Shown here piece by piece: positions 9,693-21,550 of a stretch of 64,000 bases of DNA (position 1 is the first letter of the stretch; each line of letters opens with the position of its first letter). The notes under the pieces were generated by a model. It was not told where the DNA came from, did no database searches, and saw nothing but the letters and a program-made list of their open reading frames with translations. Made by a program: the position numbers and the translations under genes. The DNA comes from an uncultured Pelagibacteraceae bacterium (GTDB lineage Bacteria; Pseudomonadota; Alphaproteobacteria; Pelagibacterales; Pelagibacteraceae), in NCBI GenBank assembly GCA_902586495.1, contig CACIHQ010000003.1:36606-100605 (forward strand). The letters run 5' to 3'.

Positions 9693-10604
9693 ATGCTATC
9701 CAAAAAAGAAATTATTTGTCCTGATAACTTGCTCAACGTTGCTCATAAAAAGAAAGGTGTTAAAGCAGGGATTGTTAATGCAGGAAAACCTCTTCCTATG
9801 CAGTCGGTGCAAGATGCTGTTAAAGAAAATCTAATTGAGCCAATTTTTATAGGTGATGAAAAAGAAATAAATAAGTGCGCACAAGATTTAAAATGGGATA
9901 TCTCAAATTATGAGATAATTCATGAACCTATTGAAAACAATACAGCCGTCATTGCTGCAAAACTTGCGAGCGAACAAAAGATCAAAATTATTGTTAAAGG
10001 CCATATTCATACTGACGTTCTAATGAAAGAAGTTTTGAAAAGAGAATATGGTTTACTTGGAAAAACCAGATTAAGTCATATTTGGCATATGACTTTAGGA
10101 AAAGAGGATAAACCTTTAATAATTACTGATGGAGCATTGAATGTTTTGCCTAATGTAAAAACAAAATTACATATTCTTAAAAATGTTATTAATTTTTCCA
10201 ATAGAATTGGTATTGAAAAACCTAAGGTCGCAATATTATCTGCTACTGAAGAAATTTTAGATAGTGTTCCAAGTTCGAAAGAGGCTGAAGAATTAACTAA
10301 ATTAGCAAAAAAAGAAAATTTAAATGCCGATGTTTTTGGTCCGCTAGCATTTGATAATAGTATCTCAAAAAAATCTGCTGCTATTAAAGGAATACAAAAT
10401 AGTGTAGCTGGTATGGCTGACGTATTACTGGTTCCAAGTGTTGAAACGGGAAATGGATTAGTAAAAATGCTTATATATTTTTGTGGAGCGTGTGCAGCAG
10501 GTGTGGTTGTTGGTGGTAAAGTTCCAGTAGTAATAACCAGTCGTTCTGATGATGCTCCAGCAAGATTAGCTTCTATTGCTGCAGCTGTTGTTGCTTTAGA
10601 TTAA
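9693..10604 (+). CDS. pta: Phosphate acetyl/butyryltransferase family protein
   Basis: PTA_PTB-type protein (IIVKGHIHTDVLMKEVL, ADVLLVPSVETGNGLVKMLIYF, VPVVITSRSDDAPARLASIAAA). Confidence 0.85.
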   Translation: MLSKKEIICPDNLLNVAHKKKGVKAGIVNAGKPLPMQSVQDAVKENLIEPIFIGDEKEINKCAQDLKWDISNYEIIHEPIENNTAVIAAKLASEQKIKIIVKGHIHTDVLMKEVLKREYGLLGKTRLSHIWHMTLGKEDKPLIITDGALNVLPNVKTKLHILKNVINFSNRIGIEKPKVAILSATEEILDSVPSSKEAEELTKLAKKENLNADVFGPLAFDNSISKKSAAIKGIQNSVAGMADVLLVPSVETGNGLVKMLIYFCGACAAGVVVGGKVPVVITSRSDDAPARLASIAAAVVALD

Positions 10605-15591: not shown

Positions 15592-15612
15592 TCCAAAAAA
15601 AAGGAGGAAAAA

Positions 15613-15903
15613 ATGGAAAAAGAAATGTTAGTTCATCTTAAACTTAAAGAAGGTAAATTAGAAACTTTCATGGGTTGGATGCAATCAGATGAAGGGATGG
15701 GTGTTAGAAAAAGTGTTGCCTATCCAGAAAAAACTGTTGGTGCCATGATTCCAGATAAAAGTGGAATGTTGTTTAAAGTGAATGTTCATAATGAAGCTGG
15801 AATGAAAGAATTTGTAACTGGGAACAATCCTACAGCGAAGGCTATTTACGCAGAATGTGTAGAGAGTGCTAAATTATATGAACTATCTGAAGTAAATTTA
15901 TAA
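15613..15903 (+). CDS. Small dimeric alpha/beta-barrel-like (antibiotic monooxygenase-like) protein
   Basis: 96 aa, MEKEMLVHLKLKEGKLETFMGWMQS...; preceded by AGGAGG; fold assignment tentative. Confidence 0.65.
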   Translation: MEKEMLVHLKLKEGKLETFMGWMQSDEGMGVRKSVAYPEKTVGAMIPDKSGMLFKVNVHNEAGMKEFVTGNNPTAKAIYAECVESAKLYELSEVNL

Positions 15904-21022: not shown

Positions 21023-21202
21023 TTATTTATTAAAACAATTATTCACTAATATTGCCATTAATATCCAAATGACAAAAGTTTCACCATGGGTGAAAGAATA
21101 ATCCGCTCCAGCAAATCCAGCAACTATATTGATTGCATAAATAATTACGGTAGAGACTAATAAACTTAAGAATAATTTTACTATTCCATTAATATATTTC
21201 AC
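21023..21202 (-). CDS. Small membrane protein (59 aa, GTG start)
   Basis: Not in ORF track. Manual reading: VKYINGIVKLFLSLLVSTVIIYAINIVAGFAGADYSFTHGETFVIWILMAILVNNCFNK*; two hydrophobic segments. Confidence 0.5.
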   Translation of the reverse strand: MKYINGIVKLFLSLLVSTVIIYAINIVAGFAGADYSFTHGETFVIWILMAILVNNCFNK

Positions 21203-21292
21203 ATTAAAATTTTAACTATTCTCAATATTTATGCAAATGAAAATTTTCTATTAATAAGTGAAATTATTTTAGATGCCGGAATATTATTAAAT

Positions 21293-21550
21293 ACCTAGGT
21301 TGTATTCAAGAAATATATTTTCAGAAAATTTAAATAAATTTATTGATTACAACCTAATCAAAATTTAATCTTTAATTAAGGAGGTAGCTTTAATGAATCA
21401 AACACCACCTGATACTTAGCTGGGTATTTTCATACTTCATAAAAACGTAAATAAAAAATATAAAGTCCATTCGGACTTAAATGCCAGAACGGCAAATTAG
21501 GGGCTGCTCTTTTGGTTAATTAACTAGAGAGCAAACCCCTAAATTATTTT
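21293..21550 (+). ncRNA. Candidate structured RNA / leader with 8-codon ORF and three downstream hairpins
   Basis: Inverted repeats TAGGTTGTA/TACAACCTA (21296-21304/21348-21356) and TTGATTA/TAATCAA (21343-21361); SD AAGGAGG 21378-21384; ORF MNQTPPDT* 21393-21419; hairpins AAGTCC-ATTC-GGACTT, TGCC-AGAAC-GGCA, TTAGGGG..TGCTCT/AGAGCA..CCCCTAA. Confidence 0.5.

Follow-up and report, generated by a model that had tools for sequence, protein, structure and literature searches.

Sequence comparison supports the transcription-unit layout and RNA structure of a compact element in the window (the whole 64,000-nt stretch of DNA analysed), a new RNA family by Rfam, as well as selection on its strong Shine-Dalgarno (SD) sequence, in-frame start codon, last four residues, and stop codon. 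We tentatively regard as plausible that this element is a single-copy, free-standing RNA gene of ~250 nt that is translated and serves as a regulatory RNA gated by the ribosome, through pausing at Pro-Pro-Asp/Glu. The ORFs ending at 21202 and 21557 are separated by a 354-nt gap, in agreement with the spacer of about 350 nt claimed in the original prediction, and the element lies inside this gap with the following parts.

Architecture of the element in the window

21295-21543, + strand: whole RNA element; sole match of covariance model R1 within the window, 224.9 bits
21285-21290, + strand: predicted promoter -10-like box TATTAA, in conserved alignment columns, 7 nt upstream of the 5' stem
21297-21355, + strand: 5'-terminal hairpin GGUUGUAUUCAA ... 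UUGAUUACAACC with inner AAUAUAUUU/AAAUAAAUU (helix 1, 89% of cells paired)
21378-21384, + strand: perfect Shine-Dalgarno AAGGAGG; GGAGG core upstream of the tail in all retained homologues
21393-21419, + strand: mini-ORF MNQTPPDT-stop (ATG 21393, TAG 21419), with an in-frame ATG throughout the homologues
21405-21419, + strand: conserved tail CCN CCN GAN ACN stop, encoding Pro-Pro-(Asp/Glu)-Thr-stop, defined by codon comparison
21406-21422, + strand: possible small hairpin CACCUGA-YAC-UUAGCUG over the tail, predicted by RNAalifold
21463-21478, + strand: hairpin H1, AAGTCC-ATTC-GGACTT, with compensatory changes
21482-21494, + strand: hairpin H2, TGCC-AGAAC-GGCA (GCC/GGC core), with two pairs changed on both sides
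21497-21542, + strand: bipartite hairpin H3, AGGGG/CCCCT plus GCTCTTT/AAAGAGC, with five pairs changed on both sides

In a coordinate check, every sequence element listed in the original prediction was found at its position, including the perfect AAGGAGG followed by the MNQTPPDT ORF and the three 3' hairpins, all of which were verified in the sequence, the hairpins also by compensatory changes. The predicted 5' pairing of TAGGTTGTA (21296-21304) with TACAACCTA (21348-21356) was correctly positioned, and the stem proved to be longer, extending over 21297-21355. Its 5' arm is almost invariant, and the 3' arm of one subclade retains only the top pairs plus G-U wobbles. The TTGATTA/TAATCAA hairpin (21343-21361), proposed as a mutually exclusive alternative to this stem, had to be abandoned as a conserved feature, being found only in close relatives of the window, with most homologues reading TTGAATACAACCT. 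The loop of H3 carries a conserved UUUUGGU.

The -10-like box reads CTACTAAAG in most relatives, and a transcript start at the 5' stem would be consistent with its position. A consensus promoter scan returned GTGAAA-18-TATTAT at 21258-21287, with a score no better than chance. Elsewhere in the 64-kb window, the sole other AAGGAGG right before an ATG is located at 15601-15617 (+), and strong SDs look rare in this genome. Beside the element, a 59-aa ORF (21023-21202, -) without a Pfam match, whose homologues are the upstream neighbour in 61 loci, is probably a real small membrane protein.

Conserved RNA structure and selection on the mini-ORF

Covariation was evaluated over 48 pairs in 29 homologues less than about 86% identical, in which 93.1% of cells are paired. 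Twelve pairs are changed on both sides, compared with 5.7 +/- 1.3 after shuffling, and 40 cells are double-changed, compared with 13.7; neither value was reached in any of 500 shuffles, bearing out the structured RNA that had been predicted. When the partners were slid against each other as a control, pairing dropped to 27-52%, and the native sequences of seven homologues fold 3.5 to 7.7 s.d. below their dinucleotide shuffles. The 3' part of the structure is also found in a second genus, with homologous H1, H2, and H3 downstream of the mini-ORF; H2 covaries there (GACC/GGTC, GGCC/GGCT, and GGCA/TGCC), and H1 and H3 together show 26 double-changed cells across the two genera versus 8.7 after shuffling, in an alignment of 18 sequences. 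Over the whole element, G-U cells exceed A-C cells (76 to 18), which favours an RNA of the plus strand, with H1-H3 alone showing no such bias (12 versus 14). On the minus strand, H1 is predicted to form an intrinsic terminator with a U-tract for the convergent gene. Plus-strand sequence 3' of H3 contains no U-tract, and the RNA probably ends near H3. H3 was also considered as a common SAR11 terminator and rejected, as no second copy occurs elsewhere in its own genome.

The SD is often partly paired in the predicted folds, with partners that are inconsistent among homologues. Its sequestration by the Pro-Pro codons (GGAGG with CCNCC) was discarded as a general feature, being seen in some folds only, with a mean of 0.13 of pairing. 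In many homologues, a pyrimidine patch (CUUU/ACCUUU) lying just upstream, within 21370-21384 (+), is able to base-pair with the SD, and in these modelled folds the two may form an SD-masking hairpin.

In all 140 distinct full copies of the first set, the SD is followed by an in-frame ATG with no stop before Pro-Pro-Asp-Thr-stop, and these copies contain ~26 different N-terminal sequences. Likewise, each of the 52 distinct spellings from two genera keeps the in-frame ATG (chance by shuffling, 0.088 each), and out-of-frame ATGs number zero. The ORF is 6-10 codons long and follows the peptide pattern M-x(1-6)-Pro-Pro-(Asp/Glu)-Thr. Among 18 sequences from the two genera, the first and second codon positions of Pro-Pro-(Asp/Glu)-Thr are invariant and the third is variable in all four codons; the stop codons UAG, UAA, and UGA are all in use. 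PPDT thus survives the changes ACT->ACA, CCT->CCA, CCA->CCG, GAC/GAT, and TAG->TAA, the tail being CCR CCT GAC ACA TAA in four divergent copies (G153, G156, G161, and G285) and CCR CCA GAT ACT TAG in G034 and G356. The second genus has ATG TCA CCR CCT GAA ACW TGA/TAA, encoding MSPPET, in all six genomes sampled. When both residues after Pro-Pro were left free in the search pattern, Asp-Thr was the only pair among the listed matches with the ORF layout, and the other listed matches look like chance.

Conservation of the tail as a hairpin was rejected, because its pairs lack covariation and are broken in the same four divergent copies and in the second genus. As these copies keep the peptide, the amino acids rather than the tail hairpin appear to be selected. 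By this evolutionary comparison, the element has a short ORF with a selected C-terminus, as leader peptides do, and this ORF ranks among the shortest in which third-position variation can demonstrate coding selection.

Gene order and distribution in SAR11

In 136 of 138 loci, the element is followed by a convergent gene; these downstream neighbours represent at least nine families, and their distance from the SD is almost always 152-178 nt. The upstream neighbour is found on either strand. The original prediction had noted that no co-directional gene follows the element, and the same layout thus extends to almost every locus. The two others (L069 and L080) have no close convergent gene; there, the first ORF detected downstream is co-directional, at a distance of 453 nt. 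The element occupies several distinct chromosomal positions and seems to have moved repeatedly; contexts at L042-L051, L098, and L252 include photolyase/aminotransferase, cytochrome/methyltransferase, and DUF952/SMR genes. Convergent neighbours of many families, an upstream neighbour on either strand, and the several positions together point to an independent transcription unit rather than a leader. Such a unit, which is expected of a dual-function sRNA, is predicted from the gene order and the conserved -10-like box.

BLASTN of the gap against 150 relatives recovered the intergenic element from much of the genus. Of 398 genomes of the order, 134 matched a pattern running from the SD to the tail, every one belonging to this same genus, and the reversed control pattern gave zero matches. 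With the R1 model, 22 of the 31 near-complete genomes searched in the genus each yielded one intact copy (E < 1e-17), and conservation extends to the second genus, with homologues in 6/6 sampled genomes; a search of 16 genomes from a second family of the order gave no match. Titled records among the matches are Pelagibacteraceae single-cell genomes and MAGs. A weak second BLAST match in the genome G000 was at chance level, and non-SAR11 matches to a 17-base motif lacked an SD and were likewise ascribed to chance. By the R1 model, the element is missing from the remaining 9 of the 31 genomes, and one genome carries a decayed remnant (L212; G024:C5, 3274-3449, -) without the 5' hairpin and with disrupted PPDT codons, which is, at the sequence level, evidence of loss in one lineage. 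The element is therefore not essential.

A copy is present in Ca. Pelagibacter ubique HTCC1062 at 762688-762949 on the minus strand (G156:C1), between ORFs whose ends lie at 762677 and 763013. The interval so bounded is identical to an intergenic region listed by Meyer et al. 2009 in their Table 1 (762678-763012), located between SAR11_0785 and SAR11_0786 (qacH), which had 76 BLAST hits, with a cut-off of 200, and no RNA assigned (PMC2704228). Pfam identified the flanking ORFs as DUF952 and a small multidrug resistance protein, the former in agreement with the annotation of SAR11_0785 (PMC2864753). The candidates of that survey resemble the element in their intergenic conservation in Ca. P. 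ubique, and the element is none of its eight motifs (rpsB, rpsL, ffh, SAM-V, rhtB, pntA, bablM, and SAR11_0636) (PMC2704228).

Proposed mechanism, rival explanations, and known systems

In the mechanism that we propose, the RNA would be transcribed from its own promoter and would combine the roles of structured RNA and mRNA for a tiny peptide. The perfect SD would load a ribosome on nearly every copy, and Pro-Pro-Asp/Glu, as an EF-P-sensitive motif, may hold this ribosome over the ORF and stop codon, just upstream of H1-H3. The residence time of the ribosome could be set by the status of EF-P, prolyl-tRNA, or release factor and would in turn determine the stability or accessible form of the RNA, which may then act in trans; in short, the element would be a leader peptide without a led gene. 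A pausing motif would tolerate the swap of Asp for Glu while the rest stays fixed. In Escherichia coli lacking EF-P, PPD occurred exclusively at diprolyl sites with pausing, and ribosomes also paused at PPE (PMC4140641). The invariant Pro-Pro-Asp/Glu of the element exactly matches such EF-P-dependent motifs (PMC4140641) and, judged by its sequence, supplies the known stall motif expected in the nascent chain of a ribosome arrest peptide. Unlike diprolyl motifs inside ordinary proteins, it makes up approximately the whole ORF, right before the stop codon of a stand-alone RNA. It can further be speculated, with some doubt, that the element founds a new class of stand-alone 'arrest RNA', in which a programmed Pro-Pro-acid pause cassette, as the sole ORF, senses EF-P or the state of translation and gates a trans-acting RNA.

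The main rival is that the peptide itself is the product, with its Pro-Pro-(Asp/Glu)-Thr C-terminus binding a protein or RNA in trans and the hairpins forming a 3' UTR. The last four residues are indeed the most conserved feature, the N-terminus is free, the free-standing layout suits a peptide gene, and alphaproteobacteria are known to have leader peptides that act in trans (peTrpL, PMC7298713). However, just four of the 6-10 residues are conserved, and the RNA structure conserved on both sides of the ORF, its 3' part across genera, is unneeded by a simple mRNA; we consider this explanation unlikely. It is less likely still that H1-H3 is just a bidirectional terminator between convergent genes, with the conserved sequence upstream constituting a minimal ORF unit of its own. 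The minus-strand terminator at H1, the lack of strand bias in the G-U and A-C counts of H1-H3, and the convergent gene downstream in nearly all loci agree with such a role, but H2, H3, and the H3 loop are retained although the convergent genes beside them are unrelated and number at least nine, they accompany the ORF to its various loci and into the second genus, and H3 has no further copy in the genome.

A purely non-coding sRNA, with an incidental ORF and a tail kept as a hairpin or base-pairing seed, would account for a tail whose nucleotides hardly vary among most copies of the genus and for the small hairpin that it can form. We hold it to be improbable, as the same amino acids (or Glu in place of Asp) persist in the divergent copies and the second genus despite altered third bases and a broken hairpin, and the ATG stays in frame in all 52 distinct spellings. 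The several chromosomal positions, sharp edges, and patchy presence could also be those of a mobile or phage-derived element, to which we assign a similarly small probability, given that the element is always single copy, that phage records gave no convincing match, and that the loci read showed no transposase close by. Most improbable is that the element controls a downstream gene in cis, as an attenuator or riboswitch. Attenuator leaders look similar in having an SD, a short ORF, and hairpins in succession, and an attenuator was one reading of the original prediction. This reading fails on the opposite-strand gene that comes next in 136 of 138 loci, where a transcription attenuator would have a co-directional structural gene, on the 453-nt distance to the nearest co-directional ORF found in the two exceptional loci, and on the non-conservation of the alternative hairpin. 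The other reading offered there, a free-standing structured RNA and possibly a peptide/sRNA unit, fits the covariation, the -10-like box, the translated-looking ORF, the varied convergent neighbours, and the lack of an Rfam match.

Searches of Rfam 15 returned nothing at the gathering threshold in the window or in ten homologous loci, and the best matches at relaxed thresholds were at chance level, so that the predicted RNA does not coincide with an already described family. ARAGORN found no tRNA or tmRNA in the element; a two-piece alphaproteobacterial tmRNA was thus dismissed by both Rfam and ARAGORN, and the tmRNA of HTCC1062 lies elsewhere, at 10302-10518 (PMC2704228). A type I toxin-antitoxin system, which pairs a hydrophobic toxin of ~20-60 residues with an antisense RNA, was also rejected, the peptide having 6-10 residues and being not consistently hydrophobic. 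The element shares a short ORF, a selected C-terminus, and downstream RNA hairpins with the TnaC, ErmBL, and SecM class, but has no regulated gene downstream and an unconstrained N-terminus, and its stalling is predicted from the motif. Like dual-function sRNAs and rnTrpL/peTrpL of Sinorhizobium, it is a free alphaproteobacterial RNA with a tiny ORF (PMC7298713); it differs from them in that no sequence relationship was found, its ORF is shorter, and it does not serve as attenuator of an adjacent operon. The parts (mini-ORF, pause motif, and sRNA) are already known, and the stand-alone combination is unmatched: a stand-alone RNA with a conserved pause-like cassette as its only ORF had no counterpart in Rfam or in the literature searched, subscription papers, ocean metatranscriptome surveys of sRNAs among them, lying outside that search.

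The presence of the element in cultured HTCC1062, established by the coordinate match, makes its transcription and the proposed ribosome stalling directly testable. SAR11 are the most abundant bacteria of the ocean, and both transcriptional regulators and non-coding DNA are very scarce in their cells. In such regulator-poor, compact genomes, a conserved 250-nt RNA gene without a cis target must earn its keep, and, if the proposal is true, a class of 'arrest RNA' would operate in cells that are among the most abundant on Earth.
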